Assembly: GCF_017811175.1 (NCBI RefSeq)
Contig: NZ_JACWIJ010000002.1
Location: forward strand, 2,666,001 to 2,730,000
Direction of reading: 5' to 3'
Origin: Melaminivora jejuensis
GTDB lineage: Bacteria; Pseudomonadota; Gammaproteobacteria; Burkholderiales; Burkholderiaceae_C
Length of the DNA: 64,000 bases
Shown here: one piece after another, positions 3,662 through 61,590 of the stretch
How the letters are laid out: the number at the start of each line of letters is the position of its first letter
Position numbering within the stretch: position 1 is the first letter of the stretch
Program-made: the position numbers and the translations under genes
The notes under the pieces: model-generated
Databases searched by the model: none
Told to the model about the DNA's origin: nothing
Seen by the model: only the letters and a program-made list of their open reading frames with translations

Positions 3662-4540
3662 ATGCCTGTAGCCCTACTCCTGCAAGCGCTGACAGCTATC
3701 TTTTTGATAATCTCCAGCCTGACCGCCAGCGCCCAGCCGCTGCGCGCCGTGCCGGTGCTGACCTCGCGCGTGATCGACGAGACCGCTACGCTGAGCGAAA
3801 CCCAGCGCCAGGCGCTGCAGGCGCAGCTGGCCGAGATCGAGCGCACGCACGGCTCGCAAGTGGTGGTGCTGCTGGTGCCGACCACGGCGCCCGAGGACAT
3901 CGCCGCCTTCGCCCACCGCGTGGCCAGCACCTGGAAGATTGGCCGCAGGGACGTGGGCGACGGCCTGCTGATCATCGTCGCCAAGGACGACCGGCGTATG
4001 CGCATCGAAGTGGCGCGGGCGCTGGAGGGGCCATTCCCGACATCGCGGCGGCGCGCATCATCGACGCCGTCATGGCGCCGCGCTTTCGCGAGGGTGACTA
4101 CGCCGGCGGTCTGCAGGCCGCCGTGCAGCAGATCGGCGCACGCATCGCCGGCGAGGCGCTGCCGCTGCCCGGCGCGCCGACGCGCACGGCAGGCGCCGAT
4201 GAGGCCGGCTTCAGCGAGATGGCGGTCTTCCTGTTCTTCATCGTCATGCTGCTCAGCCCGGTGCTGCGCGCCATCTTCGGCCAGCGCCTGGGCGGCGTGG
4301 CCATGGGTGCGGGTGCCGGGGCGCTGGCCTTTTGGTTCACAGCCAGCGTGCTGCTGGCGTCCAGCGCCGGACTGGTGGCGCTGCTGTATGCCTGGATCTT
4401 TGGCGGGCGGCGCGTGCCCATCGTCTGGGGTGGCGGCGGAGGCGGCTTTGGTGGCGGTGGCGGGGTTTTGGCGGCGGGGTGGCTTCAGCTCGGGCGGCGG
4501 AGGCGGCTTTGGTGGCGGTGGCGCTTCGGGCAGCTGGTGA
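3662..4540 (+). pseudogene. TPM-domain membrane protein (YgcG-like), frameshifted as sequenced
   Basis: ATG 3662 gives a signal peptide (MPVALLLQALTAIFLIISSL, cleavage near ASAQ) and then a TPM domain (VIDETATLSETQRQAL, GDGLLIIVAKDDRRMRIEV). The frame is lost after VARALEG; the continuation (DIAAARIIDAVMAPRFREGDYAGG) is in the next frame, followed by two membrane segments. The glycine-rich tail returns to the first frame and ends GFGGGGASGSW. One extra G in the G4 run at 4027-4030, and one each in the G4 runs at 4462-4465 and 4476-4479, restores a protein of about 293 residues ending in a typical Gly/Ser/Trp tail. The signal peptide overlaps a copy of the dispersed repeat. TPM proteins of lemA operons are thought to act in membrane stress; the exact role is unknown. 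Confidence 0.75.
3669..3707 (+). repeat. Dispersed repeat, copy 1 (inside TPM signal peptide)
   Basis: Contains CAAGCGCTG and CAGCTATC (3683-3700), the two most constant blocks of the family. It overlaps codons 3-15 of the TPM gene, where it is read as QALTAI within the hydrophobic core of the signal peptide. Confidence 0.8.
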
Positions 4541-4551
4541 GGACGCAAAAA

Positions 4552-5133
4552 ATGACAGCGCAGACTTCTTCACCCTCCTCCATCCCGCCACGCGGCCTGT
4601 GGGCGCGCCTGGCGCGGCTGCTGCGCCACCGCTGGGCCGACGGTAGCCTGGGCCGCGCCCTGCCCGCCGACATGCTGCAGCGCCTGGCCGCCCGCGTGGC
4701 GGCCAGCGAGCAGCGCCACACCGGCCAGATCCGCATCTGCATCGAGGGCGGCCTGCCGCTGTCCTATGTGTGGCGCGCCGCCAGCGTGCGCGAGCGCGCC
4801 ATCACCCAGTTCGGCAAGCTGCGCGTGTGGGACACCGAGCACAACAACGGCGTGCTGGTCTATCTGCTGCTGGCCGAGCGCCGCATCGAGATCGTCGCCG
4901 ACCGGGCGCTGGCACGCGCCGTGCCGCCCGAGGTCTGGCGCGCCATGACGGCGCACATGGGCGAGGCGTTTCGCGCCGGGCGCTGGGAGGATGGGCTGAC
5001 GCAGGCGCTCAGCGAGGTGACGGCGCTGCTGGCGGCGCACTTTCCGGCGCCGCCGCACGGGCAGGATGGCCCGGGCAACGAATTGCCCGACGCGCCGGTG
5101 CTGGCGCGCGGCTGGGCCGATCGGGGCAGTTGA
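4552..5133 (+). CDS. TPM domain-containing protein
   Basis: A 193-residue protein starting at ATG 4552, 11 bases after the previous TPM gene, so probably cotranslated in the lemA operon. It has no signal peptide or glycine tail. The family core is visible as HTGQIRICIEGGLPL, FGKLRVWDTEHNNGVLVYLL and RRIEIVADRALARAVP (roughly residues 57-130), then a helical segment with AFRAGRWEDGLTQAL. This smaller cytoplasmic-looking TPM paralogue regularly accompanies lemA and the secreted TPM protein in betaproteobacteria. No enzymatic motif beyond the TPM fold can be read; some plant TPM proteins are acid phosphatases, but that activity is not implied here. Confidence 0.88.
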   Translation: MTAQTSSPSSIPPRGLWARLARLLRHRWADGSLGRALPADMLQRLAARVAASEQRHTGQIRICIEGGLPLSYVWRAASVRERAITQFGKLRVWDTEHNNGVLVYLLLAERRIEIVADRALARAVPPEVWRAMTAHMGEAFRAGRWEDGLTQALSEVTALLAAHFPAPPHGQDGPGNELPDAPVLARGWADRGS

Positions 5134-5190
5134 GGGAGCCGGGGCGGTTGGGCGATCGGGGCGCCGCTGCAGCGCTCCAACAGGAATCAT

Positions 5191-5227
5191 TTTGATAGCT
5201 GCCAGCGCTTGCCTGGCAAGGGTTTTT
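5191..5227 (-). repeat. Dispersed repeat, copy 2
   Basis: GATAGCTG, CAGCGCTTG and GGCAAGGGTTT in order, the reverse-complement orientation of copy 1. It lies between the convergent 3' ends of the TPM gene and pdeM. Confidence 0.9.
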
Positions 5228-5286
5228 GGCCTTTTTTGCTTGAAATACCGACCTGAAGTGCTGTCCTGCGGCAGCCGCCCGGCCCT

Positions 5287-6003
5287 TCACCCCGGCAGCG
5301 GCCAGACGCGCCCGGCGCCCACGGCATACAGCCGCCGCCCTGGCGCCGCCGCCAGGGTGTGGCTGCCGGTGAAATCGCCAAAGGCCGGCAGCAGCAGCAG
5401 GCCGGGGTCGTGGCAGAAGGCCGGCAGGCGCAGGGCATCGCGAGCGCGGCCGCGCAGCCGCACGGCAGGGTGTACGTGGCCGGCCAGCACGGTCTGCCCT
5501 GGGAACTGCTGCGGGTGGTGGCAGCAGGCCAGCGGCGCAGCGGCGCGGGGCTGCCAGGGCTCGTCCACCACACGGATGTCCAGGGCGGGTGGCAGCTCGC
5601 CCGCGTGCCAGTCGTGGTTGCCGCGCACCAGGGTCAGCTCCAGCCCTGCATGGGCTGCGCGCCAGTGCGCCAGGCGCGCCAGCAGTGCCGGCGTCTGCGC
5701 CTCGGCGGCGTGCAGGAAGTCGCCCAGCACCACCAGATGCCGGGCGCCGGTGGCGGCCAGCACGCCGGACAGGCGCGCCAGGTTGTCCGCAGTGCCGCCA
5801 GCCGGCACCGGCAGCCCGCGCGCGCGGAAAGTGGCCGCCTTGCCCAGATGCACGTCGGCCACGAACAGCATGTGTGCTTCGGGCCAGTGCAGGGCGTGCT
5901 GGGGCAGCAGCAGCACGCGGATGCCCTGCAGATCGATGGCCGGGCCGGGTTCGGTGGCGGCGGCAGTAGCAGCGGCAGGGGCAGGGGCAGAGGCAGGCGG
6001 CAT
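5287..6003 (-). CDS. pdeM: Ligase-associated DNA damage response endonuclease PdeM
   Basis: A calcineurin-like metallophosphoesterase of 238 residues from ATG 6003. The metal-binding motifs appear in order: DVHLGK, GDFLHA, RGNHDW and GHVHP. These identify the PdeM family, which is encoded with a Lhr-like helicase and, in many genomes, with an ATP-dependent DNA ligase and an exonuclease. The alternative start GTG 6075 would overlap the helicase stop by three bases (GTGA), adding 24 residues; ATG 6003 is preferred because AGGATC lies just upstream and the extra residues are low in conserved character. Translational coupling to the upstream helicase is likely either way. The residues before the phosphoesterase core are Ala/Pro-rich. 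Confidence 0.85.
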   Translation of the reverse strand: MPPASAPAPAAATAAATEPGPAIDLQGIRVLLLPQHALHWPEAHMLFVADVHLGKAATFRARGLPVPAGGTADNLARLSGVLAATGARHLVVLGDFLHAAEAQTPALLARLAHWRAAHAGLELTLVRGNHDWHAGELPPALDIRVVDEPWQPRAAAPLACCHHPQQFPGQTVLAGHVHPAVRLRGRARDALRLPAFCHDPGLLLLPAFGDFTGSHTLAAAPGRRLYAVGAGRVWPLPG

Positions 6004-6071
6004 GGACACGATCCTGGGGACAAGAGGCGGTTGTAGCGCCAAGCACCACGCCGCAGCAGAGGGGCCAGCGC

Positions 6072-8921
6072 TCACAGCGGCGGTAAAGGCCGCGAGGGCT
6101 TGCGCCGGCGCCGCCCGGCTCCCGGGCCTGATCCGGCACGCCCCGCCTGCCCCGCATCCGCGCCTACCGCGCCAAAGGCCAGCGCCGCCGCAATGCCGGC
6201 CTGCTGCTGCGCATCGGGCGGCGGCACCGGCCCGCGCACGTCGGCAGCCGCCTCCAGGCTGCCCACCATGCGCGCGATGCGCTCGGCCAGGGATTCATTG
6301 CTGAGGGTTTCCCGATACCGCTCGACCATCAGCGCAAAGGCCAGCGGCCCGGGCTGCGCCAACGCCTGCACGGCCAGCGTCTGCCCCTGCATGTGCTGCA
6401 GCGCGCTTGCGATGGCGGGCAAGTCCAGCTCCTGGCGCAGCACTTCCTGGCGGGCCTGGCGCAGCAGCAGGTTGTCCGGGTCGTACTTGCGAAAGACCTC
6501 GAAGAACAGTTGCGCCGAGGCCTGCAGCTGGCGCGCGCTGCGCTGCTCGCCCGGATGGCTGTGAAAGATCAGCCCGGCCACACGGGCAATCTCGCGAAAG
6601 CGCCGGCGCGCCATTTCGGTGGCGTTCAGGCTGGCCTGCAGTTCCTGCCACAGAGCGTCGTGCGGCGCTGGCAGGTCGGTGGCGCGGTCATGGCCGCCAG
6701 CCGGGCGCAGCAGTTGCGGCACCAGTGCCGCCCAGTCGCGCGGCGTGGCGCTGAGCAGCTCCAGGCCGTAGTCGTTGACGGCCAGCGAGAACGTGCCCGC
6801 CTGCTGCTGCGCTGCGCGCCAGGCCAGCAGGCTGGCCAGACCCAGATGCGCCTGGCGACCGGCAAAGGGGTACAGGAACAGGTGCCAGCCCTCGCGCGTG
6901 TGCAGCGTCTCGGCCAGCAGCGTGTCCGGCGCCGGCAGCTGCGACCAGCGCGCCTGCAATTGCAGCAGCGGGCGCACGGCGCGCAGCTCGGCACTGGCAT
7001 AGCGCCCGGCGGCGGCCTGGGCGAATTCGCGCACCACGAAGCCCGACAGCAGCGGCGACAGCGGCAGGCGCGCGCCCGACCAGCGCGGCACGACGGCGCG
7101 CGCGCGCGGCGCGCGGCGCACCCAGGCCGTCATCTGCTCGGTGCGGATCAGCTCCAGCACCTGGCCGGCCAGCACGAAGCAGTCGCCCTGCGACAGGCGC
7201 GAGACAAAACTCTCCTCCATGCTGCCCAGCCGCGCGCCGTGCAGGAGCTGCACGCTCATGCTGGCGTCGCCGACGATGGTGCCGATGTTGGCGCGGTGGC
7301 GCCGCGCCAGGCGCGCATCGTCCATGCGCCAGATGCCATCCGCGCCCGGTTGCACGCGCCGGTAGTCGGGGTAGGCCGCCAACGCCGGCCCGCCGCCCGA
7401 GACGAAGGCCAGGCACCAGTCGAAATCGGCGCGCGTCAGATCGCGGTAGGCGCGGGTGCGGCGCACCTGGGCATACAGCGCCTCGGGCGCGAAGCCGCCG
7501 CCCAGCGCTGCGGTGACCAGGTGCTGCACCAGCACGTCCATGGGCTGCTCGGGCGTGCTGCGGCTCTCGATCCGACCGGCGCGCACGGCGGCGCGGGCGG
7601 CGGCGGCCTCGATGATCTCCAGGCCGTGCGTGGGCACCAGGGTGATGCGCGAGGGCCGACCCGGCGCGTGGCCCGAGCGCCCGGCGCGCTGCAGCAGCCG
7701 CGCCACACCCTTGGGCGAGCCGATCTGCAGCACGCGCTCGACCGGCGCGAAGTCCACGCCCAGATCCAGGCTGGAGGTGGCGATCACGGCGCGCAGGCTG
7801 CCGCCCTTGAGGCCGGCCTCGACCCATTCGCGCACGCCGCGATCGAGCGCGCCATGGTGCAGGGCGATCTGCCCGGCCCAGTCGGGGCGCGCATCAAGCA
7901 GCGCCTGGTACCAGCGTTCGGCCTGTGCGCGGGCGTTGACGAAGACCAGCGTGGTGCTGCTGCCCTCCAACTCGGCCACGACCGCCGCCAGCATGGCCAG
8001 GCCCAGATGGCCGGGCCAGGAAAAGCGCCCGAGGGCGCTGCGGCGGGCTGCTGGCCGGGGGGCTGCCGTTGCCGCAGCCGTTGGCAGCAGCGTATCGATG
8101 ACCAGCTTCTTGGCGGCGCGGCCCTGCACCAGCACGCCGGGCGCAGCCAGGGCCAGCGGCGCCAGCAGGGTGTCGCGCGCCTCGTCCAGGTTGCCCAGCG
8201 TGGCCGACATGCCCCAGATCATCAGGCGCGGACACCAGCCGGCCAGCCGCGCCAGGGCCAGTTGCAGCTGCACGCCGCGCTTGCTGCCCAGTAGCTCATG
8301 CCACTCGTCAGCCACGACCAGGCGCAGCTGCGCCAGTTGCGCGCGCGCGTCGCTGCGCGCCAGGAGCAGCGACAGGCTCTCGGGCGTGGTCACCAGCGCC
8401 GTGGGCAGGCGGCGCGCCTGGGCGCTGCGCTCGGCGCTGGCGGTGTCGCCGGTGCGCGCGGCCAGGGTCCAGCGCGCCAGGGCCGGATGGGCAGGTGCCA
8501 GGTCTTGCAGCGGCTGCGCCAGGGCTTGCAGGGTGTCGGCGGCCAGCGCCCGCATGGGCGTGATCCACAGGACGGTGAGCGGTTCGGCGGATGGTGTTTT
8601 TTCTTCTTTTTTGATAGCTGTCAGCGCTTGCTGGGTAAGGGTTTCAGCCGTTTTTCTCTTGTTTTCTTGAGCCAGTGCCTGCAGCGCACCCAGCCAGACG
8701 GCGTAGGTCTTGCCGGCGCCGGTGGTGGCGTGCAGCAGGCCCGAGCGGCCCGCTCTCATTGCACGCCAGACCTGGCGCTGGAAGGCAAAAGGCCGCCAGC
8801 CGCGCGTGGCCAGCCAGCCGGCGGCGTCAGGGGCTGGGCACCGGGGAGTGGCGCAGAGATCGCCCGGCGGGCAGTGCCGGTCTTCGGAGCGGGCAACGAT
8901 CAGGTCTGGCTGCGCTTTCAT
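6072..8921 (-). CDS. Ligase-associated DNA damage response DEXH helicase
   Basis: A 949-residue superfamily 2 helicase of the Lhr type. Walker A is ATTGAGKT (residues 65-72), motif II is DEWH followed by ELLGSKRG, and motif VI is [10 protein letters not shown]. The C-terminal half carries the Lhr-type extension. It acts on DNA in the cytoplasm and by family association takes part in repair; it is followed by pdeM, whose start it overlaps or nearly touches. Residues about 86-112 ([20 protein letters not shown]...), between Walker A and the next motif ([14 protein letters not shown]), look inserted: this segment is encoded by a copy of the dispersed repeat. No ligase gene is adjacent. Confidence 0.93.
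8609..8645 (-). repeat. Dispersed repeat, copy 3 (inside helicase gene)
   Basis: GATAGCTG, CAGCGCTTG and AAGGGTTT blocks. The copy is in frame within the helicase gene and is read on the minus strand as [10 protein letters not shown]. Reading frame is kept on both sides. Confidence 0.9.
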
Positions 8922-8959
8922 GCCTGCCTCCGGGGCTGGTGTTTTTCAGGCAAAAAGTG

Positions 8960-8996
8960 GCCGAACGCCTTTCCAGTCAAGCGCTGGCAGCTATCG
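8960..8996 (+). repeat. Dispersed repeat, copy 4
   Basis: CAAGCGCTGG and CAGCTATC at 8978-8995, preceded by a degenerate CGCCTTTCCAG. It lies between the helicase 5' end and the atp terminator. Confidence 0.88.
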
Positions 8997-9205
8997 AATT
9001 TGCAGCAATCAGAAAGCCTGCACATTGGCTGGCAAGGAACAGGCAAGGCCATGGCCCATGCTAGGGCGCGGGCAGGGTGCGAGGTGCCGGCAGGCACGCG
9101 CATTGGCCTGTCGGCCAAGGACTTGCGTAGCAGGTGGCAGCGCGCGGGTGGTGGACACACTCCAACACCTGGCTGGTTCAGGGCTGTCTGCAGCCGGCTC
9201 AAAAC

Positions 9206-9840: not shown

Positions 9841-12205
<2,365 letters not shown>

Positions 12206-18777: not shown

Positions 18778-18800
18778 CCCGTATTTTTGGTCGAATCAGG

Positions 18801-18836
18801 CTCAAAGCCTTGCCCAGCAAGCGCTGACAGCTATTT
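18801..18836 (+). repeat. Dispersed repeat, copy 5
   Basis: CTCAAAGCCTTG, CAAGCGCTG and CAGCTAT in order, between the convergent 3' ends of lipA and ptsI. Confidence 0.92.
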
Positions 18837-18848
18837 TATCCGTAGCAA

Positions 18849-22119: not shown

Positions 22120-22152
22120 AAAAGCCGGTTTCCATCAAGAAAACCGGCTTTT
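22120..22152 (+). terminator. Bidirectional terminator after tlpA-like gene
   Basis: Perfect 12-bp stem AAAAGCCGGTTT/AAACCGGCTTTT with a 9-base loop, A/T-flanked on both sides. It lies between convergent genes and can serve both. Confidence 0.9.
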
Positions 22153-22185
22153 CCCCTTGTACAGCAAGCGTTGGCAGCTATGTTT
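22153..22185 (+). repeat. Dispersed repeat, copy 6
   Basis: CCCCTTGTACAGCAAGCG and GGCAGCTATG; slightly diverged (GCGTTGG for GCGCTGG). It lies just after the terminator and ends 11 bases before the cytochrome c' stop on the other strand. Confidence 0.85.
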
Positions 22186-22196
22186 TACATAGTAAA

Positions 22197-24090: not shown

Positions 24091-24112
24091 CCGTCATCCA
24101 GGGTCTTTTCGG

Positions 24113-24150
24113 CCTCAAAGCCCCGTCCAGCAAGCGCTGGCAGCTATCAA
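24113..24150 (+). repeat. Dispersed repeat, copy 7
   Basis: CCTCAAAGCCCCGTCCAG, CAAGCGCTGG and CAGCTATCAA, between the convergent 3' ends of the acetyltransferase and peroxiredoxin genes. Confidence 0.92.
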
Positions 24151-24209
24151 AAATAAACGCCGCGCAGCCTCCCGGGGCTGCACGGCGCCTGCTGCATGGG
24201 GGCGGGGGT

Positions 24210-31606: not shown

Positions 31607-31624
31607 TGCAAATGCTATGAACAA

Positions 31625-31657
31625 ATGAGCTGCCACCGCTTGACTGGCAAGGGTTTC
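31625..31657 (-). repeat. Dispersed repeat, copy 8
   Basis: GAGCTGCCACCGCTTG and GGCAAGGGTTTCAG, diverged in the first block. It lies in the fusA-tuf gap, inside an operon, 18 bases after the fusA stop. Confidence 0.8.
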
Positions 31658-31675
31658 AGCCCATTTTCACCCTGA

Positions 31676-33784
31676 TTACTTGGTGCGTGCGGCCATGATG
31701 GCCTCGGCGACGTTGCGCGGAGCTTCGGCGTAGTGCTTGAACTCCATGGTGTACGTGGCGCGGCCCTGGGTCATGGAGCGCAGCTGCGTGGCGTAGCCGA
31801 ACATTTCCGACAGCGGCACCTCGGCCTTGATGGCCTTGCCGCCGCCGACCATGTCGTCCATGCCCTGCACCATGCCGCGGCGGCTGGACAGGTCGCCCAT
31901 GACCGTGCCGGCGTAGTCCTCGGGGGTTTCGACTTCCACGGCCATCATGGGCTCCAGGATGACCGGATTGGCCTTCTTGGCAGCTTCCTTGAAACCGAAG
32001 ATAGCGGCCATCTTGAATGCCTGCTCGGACGAGTCCACGTCGTGGTAGGAGCCGAAAGTCAGCGCGACCTTCACGTCCACCACCGGGTAGCCGGCCAGCA
32101 CGCCAGCGGTGAGCGCCTCTTCCACACCCTTTTGCACAGCAGGGATGTACTCGCGCGGCACCACGCCGCCCTTGATCTCGTCCAGGAACTCGAAGCCCTT
32201 GCCCGGCTCGTTGGGCTCCAGGCGGAACACCACGTGGCCGTACTGGCCCTTGCCGCCCGACTGGCGCACGAACTTGCCGTCCACGTCCTTGACGGTGGAG
32301 CGCACGGTTTCGCGGTAGGCCACCTGGGGCTTGCCGACGTTGGCCTCGACGTTGAACTCGCGCTTCATGCGATCCACGATGATGTCCAGGTGCAGCTCGC
32401 CCATGCCGGCGATGATGGTCTGGCCCGACTCCTCGTCGGTGCGCACGCGGAAGGACGGATCCTCGGAGGCCAGGCGCGACAGGGCGATGCCCATCTTTTC
32501 CTGGTCGGCCTTGGTCTTGGGCTCGACGGCCTGGGCAATCACCGGCTCGGGGAAGACCATCTTCTCGAGCATGATGTGCGCGTCCAGGTCGCACAGCGTG
32601 TCGCCCGTGGTCACTTCCTTGAGGCCCACGCAGGCAGCGATGTCGCCGGCGCGGATCTCGTCGATTTCCTGACGTTCGTTGGCGTGCATCTGCACGATGC
32701 GGCCAATACGCTCCTTCTTGCCCTTGACGGCGTTGTACACGGTGTCGCCCTTGGACAGCACGCCCGAATAGACACGCACGAAGGTCAGCTGGCCGACAAA
32801 GGGGTCGGTCATCAGCTTGAACGCCAGCGCCGAGAACTTCTCGTTGTCGTCGGCCTTGCGCGTGAGCTTCTTTTCCTCGTCGTCGGGATCGGTGCCGGCC
32901 ACGTCAGGGATGTCGGTGGGTGCGGGCAGCAGATCCAGCACCGCGTCCAGCATCCGCTGCACGCCCTTGTTCTTGAAGGCCGAGCCGCACAGCATGGGCT
33001 GGATCTCGGTGGCGATGGTGCGCTGGCGCAGGCCGGCGATGATGTCCTCCTCGGACAGCTCGCCCTCCTCCAGGTACTTGTTCATCAGCTCTTCCGAGGC
33101 CTCGGCAGCCGACTCGACCATCTTCTCGCGCCATTCGTTGGCGGTGTCCACCAGGTTGGCCGGGATGTCGCCGTACTCGAACTTCATGCCTTGCGAGGCT
33201 TCGTCCCAGATGATGGACTTCATCTTGATCAGATCGACCACGCCCTGGAAGTTGTCCTCGGCGCCGATCGGCACCACGATGGGCACCGGGTTGGCGTTCA
33301 GGCGCAGCTTCATCTGCTCGACGACCTTGAAGAAATTGGCGCCGGTGCGATCCATCTTGTTGACGAAGGCCAGGCGCGGCACCTTGTGCTTGTTGGCCTG
33401 GCGCCAGACGGTCTCGGACTGCGGCTGCACGCCGCCCACGGCGCAGTACACCATCACGGCGCCATCCAGCACGCGCATGGAGCGCTCGACTTCAATGGTG
33501 AAGTCCACGTGGCCGGGGGTGTCGATGATGTTGATGCGGTGCTCGGGGCGCTTGAGATCCATGCCCTTCCAGAAGCAGGTCACGGCAGACGACGTGATCG
33601 TGATGCCGCGCTCTTGCTCCTGCTCCATCCAGTCGGTGGTGGCAGAGCCTTCGTGCGTCTCGCCCAGCTTGTGGGTCACGCCGGTGTAGAACAGGATGCG
33701 CTCGGACGTGGTCGTCTTGCCGGCGTCGATGTGCGCCGAGATGCCGATGTTGCGGTAGCGCTCCAGGGGGGTTTTGCGTGCCAT
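31676..33784 (-). CDS. fusA: Elongation factor G
   Basis: A 702-residue translocase. G-domain motifs: AHIDAGKTT, the switch region with [37 protein letters not shown] and NKMDR. Later domains show [20 protein letters not shown] and the domain IV tip region [12 protein letters not shown]. It moves tRNA and mRNA through the ribosome with GTP. It lies between rpsG (92-base gap with a hairpin) and tuf. Length is typical of the EF-G1 type that acts in elongation. Confidence 0.99.
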
Positions 33785-38717: not shown

Positions 38718-38730
38718 GTTTTGCTACCCA

Positions 38731-38766
38731 AACAATAGCTGTCAGCGCTTGTCCAGCAAGGGCTGG
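38731..38766 (-). repeat. Dispersed repeat, copy 9
   Basis: AATAGCTG, CAGCGCTTG and CAGCAAGGGCTGG, between the ferredoxin gene 3' end and the hydrolase start on the same strand. Confidence 0.9.
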
Positions 38767-38820
38767 AGGCCAAAAACACTCACAATCAAGCCAGCGGCGG
38801 AGGTGCTGCTCAGGCGCCGC

Positions 38821-40802: not shown

Positions 40803-40829
40803 AAAAAAAGAAGCCCGGCGCAGCCGGGC
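40803..40829 (-). terminator. Terminator-like hairpin in hemJ leader
   Basis: Stem GCCCGGC/GCCGGGC (40813-40819, 40823-40829) with a GCA loop, followed on the minus strand by TTCTTTTTTT. It lies 30-60 bases before the hemJ start with no minus-strand gene upstream, so it may be an attenuator. Confidence 0.65.
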
Positions 40830-40882
40830 GGGAAAAGCCTCGTTGGCACGGATGCCGCCGAAGGCCCCGCTCAGGGAGGTAA

Positions 40883-41995
<1,113 letters not shown>

Positions 41996-42031
41996 GAGCT
42001 ACCCGCGCTTGCCCAGCAAGCGCAGGAGCTC
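41996..42031. repeat. Dispersed repeat, copy 10 (palindromic form)
   Basis: GAGCTACCCGCGCTTG, CCCAG, then CAAGCGCAGGAGCTC: both arms are close to inverted copies, so orientation is ambiguous. It starts at the hemB stop and contains the AGGAG ribosome site of the next gene. Confidence 0.88.
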
Positions 42032-42034
42032 ATT

Positions 42035-43255
42035 TTGACCACCAAAACCATCCCCGCTGCTGCCGCCGCCACCCCAGCGCCGATCCGCATCTTCCACATC
42101 CAGCCCGGCGCCGGCGCCACCGAACTGGATGCGCTGCCCGCCCAGCCCCCGCCCGTGGGCTTTTACTGGGTGGCCTGCACGCGCGCCGCGCTGCAGCAGG
42201 AGCTGGCGCGCCTGCAGGCCATGATCCAGACCGTCACCGGCCTGCAGCTGGTCGATCTGCACGTGACCGACCTGCTCAGCACGCAGCTGCCCTCGCACTA
42301 CGACTACACCTCGCAATACGACCTGCTGGTCATGCGCCAGCTGGCGGCAACCGAGGGCCAGGCCGAAGCGCCCCTGCCGCGCACGGCGCGCGGCGGCCCG
42401 CCGGTGCTGCGGCGCATCGACACCAGCCCGGTGGCCCTGGTGGTCTTCGACGCCCTGCTGCTGTCCGTGCATCCGCACGACTGCACGGTGCGCGACAGCT
42501 ACGCCAGGCGCCTGACGGCCCCGCCGCCGCCAGCGCCGCCACCCCTGGACGCCGACGCCGCCGAGGCAGCGGCAGACACCCTGGTATGCGAACTCAGCAC
42601 CGGCGCCCCGGTGGCCGGCGTGCGCCTGCCCGGCAGCACCGCTGATCTGATGCTGCGCCTGGTCAACCAGATCGTGGACAACTACCTGGAGCTGCGCCGC
42701 GACCTGTCGCGCCAGCTCGATCACTGGCAGGTCGCGCTGCTCAACCCGCGCGGGCGCTTCAACCACTGGCGCTCGCTGATGGTGGCGCGCCTGGCGCTGC
42801 ACCACCTGGCCGACATCTGCGAAGACCAGCGCGCCGCCCTACAGGCCTGGAGCAGCGCCCTGGACGGCGGGCGCATGGCCTGCGACGACGGCCTGGCGCA
42901 GCGCGAGCTGGAGCTGCTCAAGGTCAGGAGCCGCGACGTGCTGGAGCACATCGCCCGCGTGGCGCAGCACGTGCGCCGCCTGGAGCAAAGCACCGAAGCC
43001 GCCGTGCAAATGCATTTTTCCGTGCAGAACAACCGCACCAACGACATCATGCGCGTGCTCACCGTGCTCACCGCCGTGTTCCTGCCGCTGAACCTGATCG
43101 CCGGCATCTTCGGCATGAACTTCGAGGTGCTGCCCTTCGTCGAACTGCACAACGGCTTCTGGGGCGCGCTGCTGGCCATGCTCCTGATCGCCGCCGCGCT
43201 GACGGCGTACTTCTGGCGCAACCGCTACCTGGCGCAGACGGACGTTGAGCGTTGA
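42035..43255 (+). CDS. CorA-family metal ion transporter
   Basis: A 406-residue CorA-like protein. The C-terminal membrane part has the family GMN motif in NLIAGIFGMNFEVLPF, then a final helix (FWGALLAMLLIAAALTAYFW). The long cytoplasmic region includes HPHDCTVRDSYARRL and the stalk helix around VLEHIARVAQHVRRLEQSTE. It would move Mg2+ or other divalent cations. The start is TTG 42035, with AGGAG six bases upstream supplied by repeat copy 10; no ATG gives a full N-terminus. A Pro/Ala-rich loop (about residues 160-180) is unusual but low in content. Confidence 0.88.
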   Translation: MTTKTIPAAAAATPAPIRIFHIQPGAGATELDALPAQPPPVGFYWVACTRAALQQELARLQAMIQTVTGLQLVDLHVTDLLSTQLPSHYDYTSQYDLLVMRQLAATEGQAEAPLPRTARGGPPVLRRIDTSPVALVVFDALLLSVHPHDCTVRDSYARRLTAPPPPAPPPLDADAAEAAADTLVCELSTGAPVAGVRLPGSTADLMLRLVNQIVDNYLELRRDLSRQLDHWQVALLNPRGRFNHWRSLMVARLALHHLADICEDQRAALQAWSSALDGGRMACDDGLAQRELELLKVRSRDVLEHIARVAQHVRRLEQSTEAAVQMHFSVQNNRTNDIMRVLTVLTAVFLPLNLIAGIFGMNFEVLPFVELHNGFWGALLAMLLIAAALTAYFWRNRYLAQTDVER

Positions 43256-43351: not shown

Positions 43352-43876
43352 ATGCCTGCCGCCCCCACCGACGCACCAGCGTCCCTTGCCTCCTATGCGC
43401 CCGAGCGCAGCATCGGCCTGCAGTTGCGGCGCATCGTCAACCAGCTGGGCGCGACCATCGAATGCCGGGTCGAGCCACTGGGCCTGACCGACGCACAGTG
43501 GAAGCCGCTGCTGCGCCTGCTGCTGGGTGAGCACGCCAGCGCCAGCAGCGCCCTGGCGCGCGAGTGCCACATCGACAGCGGCGCACTGACCCGCCTGCTT
43601 GATCGCCTGGAGGCCAAGGGCCTGGTGCAGCGCGAGCGCGCCGCGCACGACCGGCGCGTGGTGCTGGTGGCCCTGACCGATGCCGGCCGGGCCGTGGCCA
43701 GCCAGCTGCCAGCCCTGCTGGGCGAGGCGCAGCGCCAACTGCTGCACGGCTTCGACGAGGACGAGCAGGACGCGCTGCGCGCCGCGCTCGACCGGCTGGA
43801 AGCCAACCTGCAAAACCTGGCCACCGCTGCGCCGGATAGCCGGGATGGCCTGGGTCACCCCTCAAAAAATCAATAA
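43352..43876 (+). CDS. MarR family transcriptional regulator
   Basis: A 174-residue regulator with a winged-helix DNA-binding domain. RRIVNQLGATIECRVEPLGL, DAQWKPLLRLLLGEH, CHIDSGALTRLLDRLEAKGL and RRVVLVALTDAGRAV (wing) are in the standard order. Such proteins usually repress adjacent efflux genes and release DNA on binding aromatic compounds. It is directly upstream of emrA and emrB, with repeat copy 11 between. The leader is predicted to be almost absent. Repression of the efflux genes is inference. Confidence 0.93.
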   Translation: MPAAPTDAPASLASYAPERSIGLQLRRIVNQLGATIECRVEPLGLTDAQWKPLLRLLLGEHASASSALARECHIDSGALTRLLDRLEAKGLVQRERAAHDRRVVLVALTDAGRAVASQLPALLGEAQRQLLHGFDEDEQDALRAALDRLEANLQNLATAAPDSRDGLGHPSKNQ

Positions 43877-43883
43877 AAACCCG

Positions 43884-43920
43884 CTCAAACCCTTACCAGG
43901 CAAGCGCTGATAGCTATCTT
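43884..43920 (+). repeat. Dispersed repeat, copy 11
   Basis: CTCAAACCCTTACCAGG, CAAGCGCTG and TAGCTATCTT, between marR and emrA on the same strand, eight bases after the marR stop. Confidence 0.92.
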
Positions 43921-43977
43921 TTTTGCTGATGGCTGGCTATGCCGGGCCGGCTCTCTTTTCTCTTTTCACACAACACC

Positions 43978-46807: not shown

Positions 46808-46838
46808 GCCACCAAGACGCTCCTAATTGCTACATTAA

Positions 46839-46870
46839 AAGTAGCTGCCAGCGCTTTCCAGACAAGGGCT
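46839..46870 (-). repeat. Dispersed repeat, copy 12
   Basis: GTAGCTG, CAGCGCTTTCCAGACAAGGG, between the convergent 3' ends of emrB and the dienelactone hydrolase gene. Confidence 0.88.
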
Positions 46871-46876
46871 GACGCC

Positions 46877-47572
46877 TTATTTGGCTTGCAAATGCCGCCC
46901 CAGAAACTCCACCGTTCGCGCCCAGGCCAGCTGCGCTGCCGGCGCGTCGTAGCTGGCGCGTTGGTCGCAGTGGAAACCGTGGTCGGCGTCGTACAGCTGC
47001 ACCTCGACCTGCGGGTGCGCGGCGGCGAACTCCTGCACGCCCTTGAGCGGGATGAAGTGGTCGCGCCGGCCAAAGTGCGCCAGCACCGGCACGCGCGGCG
47101 TGCGCGCCAGCTCGGCGCGGGTGGTCATGCCGCCGCCGTAGTAGGGCACGGCGGCTGACAGGCCCTGCAACTCGCAGGCGGCGCGCCAGGCCAGCAGGCC
47201 GCCGTAGCAAAAACCCATGACCGCCACGCGCGCGCCGCTGTCGCGGGCGGCGTGGTCGATGGCCGCCTGGATGTCGGCCAGCACGCCGGGCGCGGGCAGG
47301 GCCTCCACGGCGGCCTTGAGCTGCTTGCCGCGCTGCATGTCGGCCTCGCCATAGCCCAGCTCGACACCCTTTTCCACGCGGGCGAAGGTGGACGGCGCCA
47401 GCGCCAGCCAGCCCTGCGCCGCCAGCCGGCCAGCCACGTCGCGGATGTGGCTGTTGACCCCGAAAATCTCCTGCAGCAGCACCACCGCGCCGCGCGGCGT
47501 GCCTTCGGGGCTGACTTGCCAGGCCGGCACGCAAAAGCCGCCCTCGGCCACGATGTCGATCCACTGACCCAT
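46877..47572 (-). CDS. Dienelactone hydrolase family protein
   Basis: A 231-residue alpha/beta hydrolase of the dienelactone hydrolase family. The nucleophile is a cysteine in VAVMGFCYGGLLAWRAA; the acid is in HFGRRDHFIPLKGV and the histidine in YDADHGFHCDQRASYD. GAVVLLQEIFGVNSHIRDVA near the start is the family oxyanion block. True members open dienelactones in chloroaromatic breakdown; no other such genes are here, so the substrate is open. It is followed by convergent repeat copy 12. ATG 47572 is preferred over longer in-frame options. Confidence 0.93.
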   Translation of the reverse strand: MGQWIDIVAEGGFCVPAWQVSPEGTPRGAVVLLQEIFGVNSHIRDVAGRLAAQGWLALAPSTFARVEKGVELGYGEADMQRGKQLKAAVEALPAPGVLADIQAAIDHAARDSGARVAVMGFCYGGLLAWRAACELQGLSAAVPYYGGGMTTRAELARTPRVPVLAHFGRRDHFIPLKGVQEFAAAHPQVEVQLYDADHGFHCDQRASYDAPAAQLAWARTVEFLGRHLQAK

Positions 47573-49367: not shown

Positions 49368-50060
49368 TCAGCGGCCCGAGCGCTGCACCCAGTCGGCCAG
49401 CTCCTGCGCGGCCTGCGCGGCGGCCTCGGCCAGGGCGCGGGCGCCGCCGGCGGCATCGGGCGTGCTGGCCGGGCGCTGCACCACGAACAGGCGCTGGGCG
49501 ACCAGCACCTCGCCGCGCGCGCTGTTGTCGGCCAGCAGCGCGCGCAGGCGCAGCAGGCCGTGGCTGCGCTGGGGCGACTCGAAGACCTGGCTGAACTCTT
49601 CGAGCTGCACGCGCAGCACCGTGGGCATCCGGGCACGGTCGGCCAGCATGGCCAGGCCGTCGTCGCCCGAGAGCACGGCGCGGCCCTGGCCGAGCTGCTC
49701 GCGCAGCGCCTGCTGCACCAGGATGGCCGGCGGCTGGCTCCAGCGCGCCTGGGTGTAGGGCTGCAGCTGCTGGGCATTGGCATAGGCCAGGCGGTACAGC
49801 AGCGCCGAGCTGGCCTCGGGCAGGCCGGTAGCCTCCACGTCGGCCAGCGCCAGCGGCGGCAGGGCCTGGGCCTGGGCCGGCGCGGCTGCAGCAGTCGCGC
49901 TGCCCGGGCCGAAGTCATAGACGTCGGCGCGCTCGGGCGGCTTGGGCAGCACCGAGCAGGCAGCCAGTGCCACACTGGCCACAGCCAGAAAAATCAAACG
50001 AAAAAGCCCTGAAACCCTTGTCAGACAAGCGTTAACAGCTATATTTTTCATAGTATCCAT
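49368..50060 (-). CDS. ABC-type lipid transport auxiliary lipoprotein
   Basis: A 230-residue lipoprotein, last gene of a four-gene Mla/MCE operon. ATG 50060 has GGGAG six bases upstream; a GTG at 50093 overlapping the MCE stop is the alternative. The signal peptide ends at lipobox ALAAC (Cys35). The mature part has the PqiC/ABC-auxiliary pattern LLYRLAYANAQQLQPYTQAR, RWSQPPAILVQQALREQL and LRVQLEEFSQVFESPQRS. It would be held in the outer membrane and help pass lipid from the MCE protein. The N-terminal residues KNIAVNACLTRVSG are encoded by repeat copy 13. Confidence 0.88.
   Translation of the reverse strand: MDTMKNIAVNACLTRVSGLFRLIFLAVASVALAACSVLPKPPERADVYDFGPGSATAAAAPAQAQALPPLALADVEATGLPEASSALLYRLAYANAQQLQPYTQARWSQPPAILVQQALREQLGQGRAVLSGDDGLAMLADRARMPTVLRVQLEEFSQVFESPQRSHGLLRLRALLADNSARGEVLVAQRLFVVQRPASTPDAAGGARALAEAAAQAAQELADWVQRSGR
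50010..50046 (+). repeat. Dispersed repeat, copy 13 (inside lipoprotein signal peptide)
   Basis: TGAAACCCTTGTCAGACAAG, then GCGTTAACAGCTATAT. It overlaps codons 5-17 of the lipoprotein gene and is read on the minus strand as IAVNACLTRV. Confidence 0.88.
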
Positions 50061-53038: not shown

Positions 53039-53104
53039 GGGGGGGCAGTTTTGCACAATCGCCTGCGGCACTGCCAGAATGTATTGAAAAAACATCCAAA
53101 AAGC

Positions 53105-53140
53105 CTGGAAACCCTTGCTGGACAAGCGAATGCAGCTATA
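53105..53140 (+). repeat. Dispersed repeat, copy 14
   Basis: TGGAAACCCTTGCTGGACAA, then GCGAATGCAGCTATA, slightly diverged. It lies between the divergent mlaE-like and GMC genes. Confidence 0.85.
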
Positions 53141-53235
53141 CAAAAAGAAGCACGCAGGATTTTCCCTCTCGACAGCCGAGCCTGCCTTCGGACAATGGCG
53201 CGCCAGCCTGTCAGCCAGGCGCCACTGCAAAAGCC

Positions 53236-55145: not shown

Positions 55146-55179
55146 GCCCGCTTTCCTTGCATTTTTTGATGAAAACGAG

Positions 55180-55217
55180 CTGAAACCCTTGCCAGTCAAG
55201 CGCCTCCAGCTATCAAA
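55180..55217 (+). repeat. Dispersed repeat, copy 15
   Basis: CTGAAACCCTTGCCAGTCAA, then GCGCCTCCAGCTATCAA. It ends about 33 bases before the TauE/SafE start. Confidence 0.9.
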
Positions 55218-55249
55218 AAAGAACCACCAACACTGCCACAATCGCGCCC

Positions 55250-57048: not shown

Positions 57049-57078
57049 TGCACAGGGATAAAAGCGCGTCCCTATAAT
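57049..57078 (+). promoter_or_regulatory. Promoter of amino-acid ABC transporter operon
   Basis: TGCACA (57049-57054), 18-base spacer and a perfect TATAAT (57073-57078). AGGGA and TCCCT (57054-57058, 57069-57073) form a small inverted repeat just before the -10. Confidence 0.7.
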
Positions 57079-57121
57079 GCGCCACCCCCACGAGGCCAGC
57101 CTTTTTCCCCGACCGGTTGTT

Positions 57122-57176
57122 GCAGGCCTGGGCCTTTTGCAGTGTCCGGCCTGCCACCCGCAAGGCCGGTTTTTTT
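57122..57176 (+). promoter_or_regulatory. Attenuator: competing antiterminator and terminator
   Basis: Terminator stem CCGGCCT/AGGCCGG (57146-57152, 57163-57169) followed by seven T, between the promoter and the first gene. GCAGGCC (57122-57128) can instead pair with GGCCTGC (57148-57154), which would break the terminator. No leader peptide start is found after the predicted transcription start. Confidence 0.65.
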
Positions 57177-57206
57177 GTCCCTGACACCCCTGCAGGATCA
57201 ACACCC

Positions 57207-57970: not shown

Positions 57971-58009
57971 GCGCCCTGCAGCCCGCATCGGCCTGATCCC
58001 TCGTTTCCT

Positions 58010-58054
58010 GCCTGCGCTGGGCCGCATCGCCCGGCGCAGGCGTTTTGCTTTTGT
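58010..58054 (+). terminator. Intra-operon hairpin after binding-protein gene
   Basis: 13-bp stem GCCTGCGCTGGGC (58010-58022) with GCCCGGCGCAGGC (58029-58041), one wobble pair, then GTTTTGCTTTTG. Probably a partial terminator that lets the binding protein be made in excess over the membrane parts. Confidence 0.65.
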
Positions 58055-58061
58055 CTGTCCC

Positions 58062-58844: not shown

Positions 58845-59578
58845 GCACCCCCTACATCGTCTGCAAGGACGTGCGCAAGGCCTTCGGTAGCCATGAAGTC
58901 CTCAAGGGCGTATCGACCCAGTTCCACACCGGCCAGGTCACGACCATCATCGGCGCCTCCGGCTCAGGCAAGAGCACGCTCTTGCGCGCCATCAACCGGC
59001 TGGAGCCGCACGACAGCGGCAGCATCACCATCGGCGGCGTGGAGGTGACCGACGATGCGCGCACGCTGCAGGCGCAGCGCTGCGAGGTCGGCATGGTGTT
59101 CCAGCAGTTCAACCTGTTCGGTCACCTGACGGTGCTGGACAACCTGACGCTGGCGCCCCGGCGCATCCACCGCACGCCGCGCGCCGAGGCCAATGGCCAG
59201 GCCATGCAGCTTTTGAAGCGCGTGGGGATGCAGGATCACGCGCACAAGTACCCCTGGCAACTCTCGGGCGGGCAGCAGCAGCGCGTGGCCATTGCCCGGG
59301 CGCTGGCCATGGCGCCCAAGGTCATGCTGTTCGACGAGCCGACCAGCGCGCTCGACCCCGAGATGGTGCAGGAGGTGCTGGACGTCATGCGCGAGTTGGC
59401 GCGCGGCGGCATGACCATGATCGTGGTGACCCACGAGATGGGCTTTGCCCGCGAGGTGGCGGATCGGGTCATGTTCTTCGACCAGGGCTGCATCGCGCAC
59501 GACGCGCCGCCGGCGGAGTTCTTCGCCAACCCGGCCAGCGAACGCATCCGCTCCTTCCTGCGGCGCATGAGCAGTTGA
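58841..59578 (+). CDS. Amino-acid ABC transporter ATPase
   Basis: A 245-residue ATPase. Walker A is GASGSGKST, the Q-loop FQQFNLFGH, the signature [15 protein letters not shown], Walker [13 protein letters not shown] and the H-loop [12 protein letters not shown]: the GlnQ/HisP type. It powers import of polar amino acids with the preceding permease and binding protein. ATG 58841 overlaps the permease stop. Repeat copy 16 follows. Substrate is likely a basic or polar amino acid but cannot be fixed from sequence. Confidence 0.97.
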
Positions 59579-59591
59579 TTGAGCTATTTTT

Positions 59592-59620
59592 TCGATAGCT
59601 GCCCACGCTTGTGGGACGTG
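59592..59620 (-). repeat. Dispersed repeat, copy 16 (diverged)
   Basis: CGATAGCTGCCCACGCTTGT then GGGACGTG; only the first two blocks match well. It lies 14 bases after the ATPase stop. Confidence 0.7.
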
Positions 59621-59750
59621 CGCTACCGCCCTTTTTTACCCTGAACCCTGCACTCTCTCCTGCTCCCTCCCCTGTGGGGGGCTGGGGCGGAGGCCAGCGG
59701 CGGCTGGATAGCCAGCGGCGGCGCCCACCGCGAGCCGGCCCCCATCCCCG

Positions 59751-59771
59751 CCTTCCCCCTCAGGGGGAAGG
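59751..59771. other. Hairpin CCTTCCCC/GGGGAAGG
   Basis: An 8-bp stem with a short CTCAG-type loop in the leader of the EamA gene, 52 bases before its start. Nearby is a direct repeat CCAGCGGCGG (twice, 59690-59721). A regulatory role is unknown. Confidence 0.45.
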
Positions 59772-59822
59772 AGCAAATCCCCACCGCCGCCCCACCGGCG
59801 CTTTTCATCCCACACTATCACC

Positions 59823-60734
59823 ATGCGCTTTGAACGCCACGGCCTGCTGGCATTGCTCCTCGTCGTCGCCGTCTGGGGCACGACTTTCCCGGCCATGAAG
59901 CTGCTGTCCGCGCAGCTCGATGCCCTGCAAATCATCTGGGCGCGCTTTGCCATCGCGCTGCTGGTGCTGGCGCCCCTGTGGCGTGGCCTGACCGCGCCCG
60001 AGCGCCGCTGGGGCTTGCTGCTGGGCGCGCTGCTGTTTGTCGCCTTCTGGCTGCAGGTGGAAGGCTTGGCGCGCACCAGCAGCAACCGCAATGCCTTCGT
60101 CACCGGCCTGAACGTGCTGGTCGTGCCGCTGCTGGCCATGACGGTGCTGGGCCGGCGCTATGGCCTGGCCTTGTGGGCGGCGTGCGCCATGGCGCTGGCC
60201 GGCATGGTGCTGATGTTCCACGAGGACGAGCCGTGGAACCTGGGCGATACGCTGACGCTGGCCAGCACGCTGTTCTATGCCCTCTACATCCTGGTGCTGG
60301 AGGAGTGCGCGCGCCGCACCGCCGCCGCACCGCTGCGCGCCACACGGCTGGCGGCCATGCAGGCGCTGGTCATGTTCGTGGCCGCTGGCGCCCTGCTGCT
60401 GGCGCGCCACGGCGGCATGGCCGGCACCTGGGCCAGCATCGGCGACCTGCCCGGGCCGGCGCTGGCGGCGCTGATCTACCTGGGCGTGGTCGCCAGCGTG
60501 GTCGTGGTGACCCTGCAGGCCTGGGGCCAGCAGCGCGTGGACGCCATGCGCAGCGCCATCATCTTCGGCCTGGAGCCGGTGTTTGCCGCGCTCACGGCCT
60601 GGGTGTTGATTGGCGAGACGCTGGGCGCCAGCGGCCTGGCCGGCGCGGCGCTGATCGTGGCGGCGCTGATCGTGAGCCAGGTGCAGCCGGCACGGGTGCC
60701 GGCGCGGCAGGAAGTGCAGCCCACCAGCCCCTGA
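59823..60734 (+). CDS. EamA/DMT family transporter
   Basis: A 303-residue membrane protein with ten predicted helices in two EamA repeats. Signature segments are VVAVWGTTFPAMKLLSAQLD and, in the second half, AIIFGLEPVFAALTAWVLIG followed by ETLGASGLAGAALIVAALIV. The family exports amino acids and other metabolites; substrate unknown. The N-terminal MRFERHGLLALLLVV is the usual start. It is separated from the ABC transporter by repeat copy 16 and a hairpin, so probably has its own promoter. GST gene follows on the same strand. Confidence 0.93.
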   Translation: MRFERHGLLALLLVVAVWGTTFPAMKLLSAQLDALQIIWARFAIALLVLAPLWRGLTAPERRWGLLLGALLFVAFWLQVEGLARTSSNRNAFVTGLNVLVVPLLAMTVLGRRYGLALWAACAMALAGMVLMFHEDEPWNLGDTLTLASTLFYALYILVLEECARRTAAAPLRATRLAAMQALVMFVAAGALLLARHGGMAGTWASIGDLPGPALAALIYLGVVASVVVVTLQAWGQQRVDAMRSAIIFGLEPVFAALTAWVLIGETLGASGLAGAALIVAALIVSQVQPARVPARQEVQPTSP

Positions 60735-60847
60735 AGGCCAGGCGCACCCTGCCGGCTGCCGAGGCGGCGCCCGGCAGCACCGGCGCGGCCCTGCTACGCT
60801 TTGCGCCCGTCGGCCCGGCCGCCCTGTCCTCCCCCACTGCGCCCATC

Positions 60848-61537
60848 ATGCTCATCGTTCACCATCTCGAAACTTCGCGCTCGCAGCGCATCCTGTGGCT
60901 GCTCGAAGAGCTGGCCGTGCCGTATGACATCCGCCGCTACCCGCGCGATCCGAAGAGCCGGCTGGCACCGGCGGCGCTGAAGAAAATCCATCCCCTGGGC
61001 AAGTCGCCCGTGGTGGAGGATGGCGAGACCGTGGTGGCCGAGTCGGGCGCCATCATCGAATACTTGGTCGAGCGCTTTGGCGCGCAGGCCCCCGCCGAAC
61101 TGGCCCACCTGGAGCCAGCACGCGGCACGCCCGAGCATCGCCAGTGCCGCTTCTGGATGCACTACGCCGAGGGGTCGCTGATGAACTGGCTGGTGATGCA
61201 GCTGGTGTTCGACACCATCCCGCGCCAGCCCATGCCGTTCTTCGTGCGCCCGATTGCCCGCGCCCTGTGCGCCAAGGTGCAGCAAACCCTCATCCAGCCC
61301 AACGTGCAGACCGCGCTGGCCTTCATGGAGGCGCATCTGGCGCGGCATCTGTGGTTTGCCGGCGAGCACATCACCATGGCCGACTTCCAGATGAGCTTTG
61401 CCGTCGAAGCCGCCTTGGCGCGTGGCGGCGGCCAGGATGCCTGGCCGCACCTGCGCGCCTATCGCCAGCGCATGGAGGCCAGGGCGGCCTACCAGCGCGC
61501 CCTGGACAAGGGCGGGCCGGTGCTGATGTCGGCCTGA
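60848..61537 (+). CDS. Glutathione S-transferase family protein
   Basis: A 229-residue protein with the thioredoxin-like N-terminal domain (MLIVHHLETSRSQRILWLLE, KIHPLGKSPVVEDGETVVAE, SGAIIEYLVERFG) and an all-helical C-terminal domain (LWFAGEHITMADFQMSFAVE). The SRSQRILWLLEEL block matches the YfcF-like group. The nucleophile is probably Ser10 or nearby. It would conjugate or reduce substrates with glutathione. Its start is 113 bases after the EamA stop; TACGCT at 60796-60801 may be part of its promoter. Repeat copy 17 follows. Confidence 0.92.
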   Translation: MLIVHHLETSRSQRILWLLEELAVPYDIRRYPRDPKSRLAPAALKKIHPLGKSPVVEDGETVVAESGAIIEYLVERFGAQAPAELAHLEPARGTPEHRQCRFWMHYAEGSLMNWLVMQLVFDTIPRQPMPFFVRPIARALCAKVQQTLIQPNVQTALAFMEAHLARHLWFAGEHITMADFQMSFAVEAALARGGGQDAWPHLRAYRQRMEARAAYQRALDKGGPVLMSA

Positions 61538-61554
61538 AAATCAGAATAAAAACG

Positions 61555-61590
61555 GCTCAAACCCTTGTCCAGCAAGCGATATTAGCTATT
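61555..61590 (+). repeat. Dispersed repeat, copy 17
   Basis: GCTCAAACCCTTGTCCAGCA, then AGCGATATTAGCTATT, between the convergent 3' ends of the GST and mrdA genes. Confidence 0.88.

Follow-up and report, generated by a model that had tools for sequence, protein, structure and literature searches.

Why does one sequence recur 17 times in 64 kb of the genome of Melaminivora jejuensis, and what are its copies for? The stretch in question (positions 2,666,001 to 2,730,000 of contig NZ_JACWIJ010000002.1), called the window here in its full length of 64,000 nucleotides, carries a repeat that an initial annotation, made from the letters of this stretch, had picked out as a dense dispersed family. 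By following the repeat into other genomes, we found that it is a unit of about 66 bp whose 25-bp core is rewritten from species to species at sites that are mostly shared. This species-specific rewriting of the core is the main finding of our analysis, and it lies beyond the reach of any reading of a single window.

An iterated profile, run in both readings, matched the window 17 times at 27.9–50.6 bits, whereas 20 windows simulated with a first-order Markov model gave 12.3 bits at most, so the count of the initial annotation stands. Its orientation split stands as well: judged by the CAGCTAT block, ten copies point one way, six point the opposite way and one (anchor 42011) can be read both ways. 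A sample of 464 kb of the source genome, made up of the window and 20 further 20-kb stretches (one shifted to cover a Y1 transposase gene), yielded 96 copies with a strict profile, and a second-order simulation of matching size held nothing above 10 bits. Outside the window this sample contains 79 copies in 400 kb, a density somewhat below that of the window itself (17 in 64 kb). The excess is genome-wide. An exact 16-mer of the core is present 326 times in the source genome, 166 times on one strand and 160 times on the other, and its reversed control not once. With an arms-only profile and a threshold of 18 bits, 884 kb yielded 194 copies, including a few artefacts in which the right-arm hairpin is read backwards (reverse overlap); this sample had two stretches placed on purpose, at the Y1 gene and at a pilus locus, and the remainder spread by hand. 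The extrapolated total is roughly 800 copies per genome (~820), in place of the thousand or so first estimated. Two copies, at C1:29467-29537 and C2:26762-26832 of the source assembly (G000), score alike at 57.9 bits, so part of contig C1 may be a duplicate of C2.

Column frequencies taken from 89 copies show the unit to span about -35 to +30, counted from the C of CAAGCG, which lengthens it to about 66 bp from the 30–40 bp originally given. The left arm (about -35 to -16) has A/T tracts at -35 to -33 and -25 to -22, followed by GGCC. The core (-15 to +9, 25 bp) reads CAAACCCTTGCCnGGCAAGCGCTGG in the source species, and the right arm (+10 to +30) consists of CAGCTAT, in which AGCT is near-invariant, an A/T tract at +19 to +22 and then GTAGC. 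Inside each arm the A/T tracts lie about 10 bp apart, and the unit has a GC content of 46%, compared with 68% for the window. The tracts are AAA or TTT, and mixed steps (AT, TA) are avoided: positions -25,-24 are AA in 141 copies, TT in 29 and AT in 5 (27 expected), while positions +19,+20 are AA in 82, TT in 75, AT in 28 (59 expected) and TA in 6 (38 expected). The types of left tract, right tract and loop are mutually independent (Fisher p 0.72, 1.0 and 0.78). Because AAA and TTT replace each other while TpA is avoided, swaps that a folded RNA would not require, the sequence suggests a double-stranded DNA site that is read by its shape and putatively bound by a protein.

Shared sites and species-specific cores

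We compared the source genome with four other genomes of the genus, one per species. Exact core 16-mers number 127, 8, 8 and 3 in these genomes (versus 326 in the source). The arms-only probe finds similar densities per kb in the source (0.219; 106 in 484 kb) and in three of the congeners, G201 (0.245; 49 in 200 kb), G072 (0.250; 50 in 200 kb) and G178 (0.209; 33 in 158 kb). Congener identity is 88–90% over one 1.7-kb gene and 79–92% over aligned blocks. The genome with 3 exact 16-mers, G200, also has 11 arm-pattern matches, compared with 87–303 in the other genus genomes; it was scanned with the arm profile in small pieces only, and the 11 is a count of pattern matches. This may be a case of natural loss. 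No copy was found in 11.4 kb of Melaminivora alkalimesophila, which, by eye, also has none upstream of mlaE.

Most window copies have a counterpart at the same site and in the same orientation: 14 of 17 in G201, 10 of the 12 that could be mapped in G072 and 7 of the 10 that could be mapped in G178, with one further copy in G178 at the same site but in the opposite orientation. Counterparts are lacking for 3 of 17, 2 of 12 and 2 of 10 copies, respectively, where a G201 copy at 53123, recognizable but below threshold, is counted as absent. These fractions omit a weak reverse-overlap match at window position 61613 (which reduces 18 rows to 17, and the mappable rows from 13 to 12 in G072 and from 11 to 10 in G178). 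The G072 span holds one strong additional element that is not among the window copies. This comparison of insertion sites among congeners, akin to the strain comparison proposed with the initial annotation, cuts two ways: most sites are shared, which speaks against a mobile unit, and some gain or loss of copies does occur (the copies at anchors 5211 and 61573, for example, are not in G201).

At the shared sites the arms align by descent, and the core follows the local consensus of each species. That consensus is CAGTCGGCGTGnATCAAGCGC in G201, CAGCGCTTG or CAGCGCCCG..CAAGCGCnGG in G072, and CAGCCCTTAT..CAAGGGCCTG in G178. Between-species divergence of the profiles (mean Jensen–Shannon divergence; 189, 46, 45 and 30 copies from the source, G201, G072 and G178) is 0.247 at -15 to -4 and 0.214 at +4 to +9, compared with 0.038 and 0.042 in the arms (-35 to -16 and +10 to +30), and its borders are sharp, one lying between positions -16 and -15 and the other near +10. 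When 218 copies were assigned to species by a leave-one-out procedure, the core gave the right species in 75% of cases and the arms in 35%, with 25% expected by chance. Orthologous arms are more alike than arms re-paired between sites, at 0.667 versus 0.537 in G201, 0.634 versus 0.516 in G072 and 0.662 versus 0.514 in G178 (14, 10 and 7 pairs; p <=0.0005). Orthologous cores differ almost as much as re-paired ones do, with corresponding identities of 0.500 versus 0.457 (p 0.002), 0.592 versus 0.580 (p 0.33) and 0.594 versus 0.532 (p 0.001).

The same division between arms and core is seen across the Comamonadaceae, where the initial annotation had placed similar sequences and where we indeed find elements in named loci. 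A pattern of arm plus anchor, which detects part of the copies and would let distant dialects escape, matches 94 of 399 genomes and 42 of 141 genera of the Genome Taxonomy Database (GTDB) family, leaving 305 genomes with none. The highest counts, 303 each, come from the source genome and G284, and reversed controls gave 0 or 1 per strand. Among named loci around mlaE (the best 80 of 560), 58 have an element scoring above 18 bits, and three or more such elements are present in 31. Two sites near mlaE are occupied in Acidovorax, Paracidovorax, Paenacidovorax, Extensimonas and others, with 36 elements at site A and 32 at site B. Cores recur within a genome: CATGCCGCCG in 3/3 elements of Paracidovorax konjaci, CAGCGCAAT in 3/3 of P. 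valerianellae, GCCGGCGT in 3/4 of one Xylophilus and GAAATC in 4/4 at one Comamonas locus.

Over the 156 elements of these named loci, from which weak reverse-overlap matches were not removed, core identity is 0.536 between different sites of one genome (173 pairs), 0.446 at the same site across genomes (1181 pairs) and 0.422 when both site and genome differ (1863 pairs). For the arms the same three classes give 0.522, 0.618 and 0.497, with the first two in reversed order relative to the cores. Restricted to the 79 elements that carry site labels (37 within-genome pairs), the within-genome values are 0.496 for the core and 0.522 for the arms. With genome labels permuted within sites, the core mean was 0.427 and the observed 0.496 was reached in 0 of 1000 permutations; the arm value was reached in 26 of 1000. 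In the named Comamonadaceae, then, cores are similar to those of further copies within their own genome, and arms to those of orthologous copies elsewhere. Because the sites are mostly old and shared and the cores change together, we conclude that ancestral sites have been rewritten in concert.

A possible self tag in DNA uptake and its rivals

The explanation that we regard as best, and advance tentatively, is that the element may be a three-part protein-bound DNA site acting as a self-recognition tag in natural transformation, the Comamonadaceae counterpart of uptake sequences. We hold with slightly more reserve the broader proposal of a so far undescribed sequence-specific uptake system across the Comamonadaceae, which would combine a constant A-tract frame with a re-writable 25-bp identity core and would switch dialect by rewriting hundreds of ancestral sites. 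A putative protein would bind the element, and a factor with a specificity that drifts from species to species would read the core. Fragments with a tag matching the local receptor would more often be taken up and recombined, matching alleles would consequently spread at every site, and hundreds of sites would track the drifting factor through molecular drive. For uptake sequences, biased uptake and recombination can reportedly spread matching alleles at every site in just this manner, a form of molecular drive associated with Maughan and colleagues.

Two properties expected of an uptake sequence are present: strong over-representation across the genome (326 exact 16-mers versus 0 reversed; 194 copies in 884 kb) and a species-specific dialect that is consistent within a genome. 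Suggestive of a third, a preference for the core genome over acquired DNA, are the near-empty plasmid stretches described below and a thinning of copies in low-GC DNA: the seven 20-kb pieces below 65% GC have half the density of the 37 others (2.4 versus 4.7 copies, p 0.0016 for a threshold set after the fact; Spearman p 0.05). The source genome also has ComEC (in an 831-aa frame) and a ComP_DUS-type pilin with an adjoining gene that we read by eye as pilY1. In published work, dialects of uptake sequences separate species (PMC3630211, PMC3868556), Verminephrobacter eiseniae was inferred to take up DNA selectively, and only DNA of its own species transformed Acidovorax temperans (PMC4212676); the available part of PMC4212676 names an uptake sequence for neither bacterium. 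In our literature search we recognized no description of the element, and six element words of 15–16 letters gave no full-text match, with most subscription papers outside the search.

The known uptake sequences offer a partial likeness. A word of the neisserial DNA uptake sequence (DUS) is GCCGTCTGAA, and the Pasteurellaceae uptake signal sequence (USS) has a short core (AAGTGCGGT) with A/T-rich segments after it at helical-turn intervals. The A/T segments of the USS resemble the tracts of this element, which here flank the core on both sides. The DUS of Neisseriaceae is a short word (9–11 bp, reportedly 10–12) usually present in thousands of copies, whereas the site here is 66 bp, whole and present in about 800; and the DUS variants of human commensals lie one or two bases apart, whereas the core here differs between congeners at many of its 25 positions.

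Several observations weigh against an uptake tag. Neither known word is enriched in 884 kb of the source genome (the neisserial word occurs once, with 1.8 expected, and the USS word once, with 5.3 expected). The core does not stand alone as a short uptake sequence would, since strong arms accompany 109 of the 114 core matches that score above 25 bits, and of the 3 that lack arms altogether at least 2 are reverse readings. Copies in coding sequence are few (12 of 96 by our gene calls), and a little site memory persists in the core, as the p-values for G201 and G178, though not for G072, indicate. ComEC is found in 190 of 200 family genomes, nearly universal, so its association with the element is weak. 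The ComP_DUS pilin family is likewise found in 190 of 200, with or without elements, and its members are 31–55% identical among congeners in one comparison and 44–56% in another, with operon neighbors diverged as well. We therefore set aside competence-gene association as uninformative support; in the 10 genomes of 200 where ComEC gave no match, the arm-pattern count never exceeds 2. Because the pilin divergence is common to the operon neighbors, co-variation of a receptor with the dialect is kept as a lead only. At the locus itself (L081 7753-14393, read as pilY1 and minor pilins), protein identity is 47–57% to G072, the long gene is 23–27% identical in G200, G201 and G178, and two genes 5–7 kb from the pilin run are 92–95% identical to G072.

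A less probable but still serious alternative is that the copies are sites of a chromosomal protein, such as a nucleoid organizer or a segregation or regulatory factor, whose DNA-binding specificity shifted in each species while selection for binding made the sites follow. The strand-swapped A/T tracts about 10 bp apart in each arm fit such a protein, and so does the placement of the copies. Copy spacing is more even than random placement (variance/mean 0.44 over 37 pieces), and the copies are biased toward intergenic sequence without a preferred orientation. Of 96 copies, the 61 convergent gaps hold 26, the 267 codirectional gaps 54 and the 57 divergent gaps 4, and the other 12 fall within called genes; within codirectional gaps 24 run along the direction of the genes and 30 against it. 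These contexts rest on a gene caller seeded with a general high-GC codon table, with approximate starts and with copies at most 15 bp from a gene edge counted as intergenic. By the same calls, seven window copies lie between convergent or divergent genes (6 and 1), as the initial annotation had reported. On general reasoning, however, a factor with some 800 chromosomal sites would be expected to keep its specificity, and here the specificity changes among congeners that are 79–92% identical over aligned blocks. An essential role is also hard to reconcile with the few matches in G200 or with the 305 of 399 family genomes that show none by a pattern that misses distant dialects.

We consider it improbable that the element is an old palindromic repeat resembling a miniature inverted-repeat transposable element (MITE), its copies kept alike within each genome through ectopic gene conversion or through insertion, time and again, of the element into its own arms. 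Gene conversion classically makes dispersed repeats change in concert, some copies form close inverted pairs (such as those at 72367 and 72414 in G072), and a few window copies are not common to congeners. Copying or conversion from a master should, however, leave linked variants and carry adjacent arm sequence along. Over all 194 copies core linkage did appear strong, which we ascribe to a mixture of conforming and decayed copies. Among the 171 conforming copies, mutual information between core positions is strong at 1–2 bp, weaker at 3–4 bp (z 7.4) and, in this one species, absent at 5 bp or more (0.0291 versus 0.0280, z 1.3). The arms, moreover, retain site-specific sequence common to orthologues. 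Site-by-site movement toward the motif is thus more likely than copying. Plasmids give little sign of spread either: in six Comamonadaceae plasmid stretches (281 kb) we counted 2 copies, which lie together in a stretch picked for having a match, and named chromosomal-type loci hold 153 in 1428 kb, a comparison that is not with those plasmids' own host chromosomes. The two plasmid copies (L234 13753 and 17846) flank cobN on a Diaphorobacter plasmid, possibly in former chromosomal DNA. With its sites mostly shared, no long-range linked core variants and near-empty plasmids, the nonautonomous mobile unit that the initial annotation had listed as a candidate is disfavored. The beta-proteobacterial repeat element (BRE) of Bordetella, the closest published counterpart we encountered among such repeats, is likewise dispersed, mostly intergenic and listed for Comamonadaceae. 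As described, it is about 90 bp long with an average of 69% GC, has at most 29 copies and is tandem and variable in number at some loci (PMC3110155). The present element, with about 66 bp, 46% GC and about 800 mostly single copies, is set apart by that description and not by a comparison of letters.

A bidirectional transcription terminator or RNA-processing hairpin, another of the first candidates, is quite unlikely. The excess of copies in convergent over divergent gaps agrees with it, as do the 18 of 106 adjoining stop codons that lie at most 5 bp from an end of the element. Watson–Crick pairing of the arms in their best register is 58% in the source and 66% in G178, with 54% in G072, but it falls to 34% in G201, and arm covariation in that register reaches z values of just 2.4, 1.5, 0.7 and 1.2 in the source, G201, G072 and G178 (six registers tried per species). 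The lack of an orientation bias and the independence of each tract from the opposite side also argue against a hairpin, which would leave the species dialects unexplained. An intrinsic terminator was rejected because we found no maintained hairpin oriented with the gene.

Least likely is a system of repetitive extragenic palindromes (REP) moved by a Y1 transposase (REP-associated tyrosine transposase, RAYT): it shares with our element a dispersed, extragenic, imperfectly palindromic character, and Y1_Tnp matches occur in 147 of 200 family genomes, but the sites here are mostly shared and have a dialect core, the only Y1 match of the source genome (C2:580122-581772) is in separated pieces, with no intact transposase found, on a 20-kb stretch without copies, G141, G095 and G196 have 93, 47 and 50 arm-pattern matches and no Y1 match, and G007, G013 and similar genomes have Y1 and no arm-pattern match. 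The same evidence weakens the REP-like palindrome proposed at the outset and mobile repeats in general. The copy-free stretch (L007) also carries a transposase gene and heavy-metal efflux genes.

Copies in the window

The window copies are listed below with their gene context and their counterparts in the three mapped congeners. Copy 3 lies in an open reading frame (ORF) that the gene caller had shortened, so that in the counts above it was taken as lying in a codirectional gap; the frame is open across the copy, and not all copies are therefore extragenic.

Copies of the 66-bp element in the window, with coordinates, strand, context and occurrence in congeners
Copy	Coordinates	Strand	Context	Congeners and remarks
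1	3648..3713	+	codirectional gap	orthologue in G201, same site
2	5181..5246	-	convergent gap	not in G201 (anchor 5211)
3	8600..8665	-	within Lhr-type helicase ORF 6072-8921 (anchor 8630)	G201 has one there, with its own core
4	8943..9008	+	codirectional gap	also in G201
5	18783..18848	+	convergent gap	also in G201
6	22130..22195	+	convergent gap	in G201, not in G072
7	24096..24161	+	convergent gap	in G201 and G072
8	31612..31677	-	between 702-aa and 396-aa ORFs, read as fusA and tuf (by length and order only)	in G201, G072 and G178
9	38721..38786	-	codirectional gap	in all three mapped congeners
10	41981..42046	-	codirectional gap	readable in both orientations; in G201 and G072, not in G178
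11	43866..43931	+	codirectional gap	in all three mapped congeners
12	46827..46892	-	convergent gap	clearest example: arms common, four differing cores
13	49991..50056	+	between MlaD and ABC_trans_aux genes	site B of the cross-genus test
14	53088..53153	+	divergent gap upstream of MlaE gene	site A of the cross-genus test
15	55162..55227	+	codirectional gap	in all three mapped congeners
16	59581..59646	-		atypical core; in G201 and G072, opposite orientation in G178
17	61538..61603	+	convergent gap	not in G201, G072 or G178, nor is the preceding gene (anchor 61573)

An Rfam scan of the window returned one match and none at copies of the repeat. The match, to the anti-hemB RNA (RF02837), lies at 40805-40890 on the - strand in a divergent gap, off any copy, and scores 53.5 bits (gathering threshold 49.5).

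Implications for the Comamonadaceae

The rewriting of ancestral sites in concert, species by species, is a rare example, and a clear one, of concerted evolution within a bacterial chromosome. Should the element not serve in uptake, another chromosomal factor would be altering what it recognizes across the whole genome from one close relative to the next, no less surprising a result. If the element is an uptake tag, the biology of uptake sequences would come to include a large family whose members live in the environment, with plants or as symbionts, and partners in DNA exchange would become predictable from sequence alone. The congeners and their relatives would then offer a natural series of switched and lost dialects in which to find the receptor, and the species-specific transformation described in the Comamonadaceae could have its physical basis in the tag.

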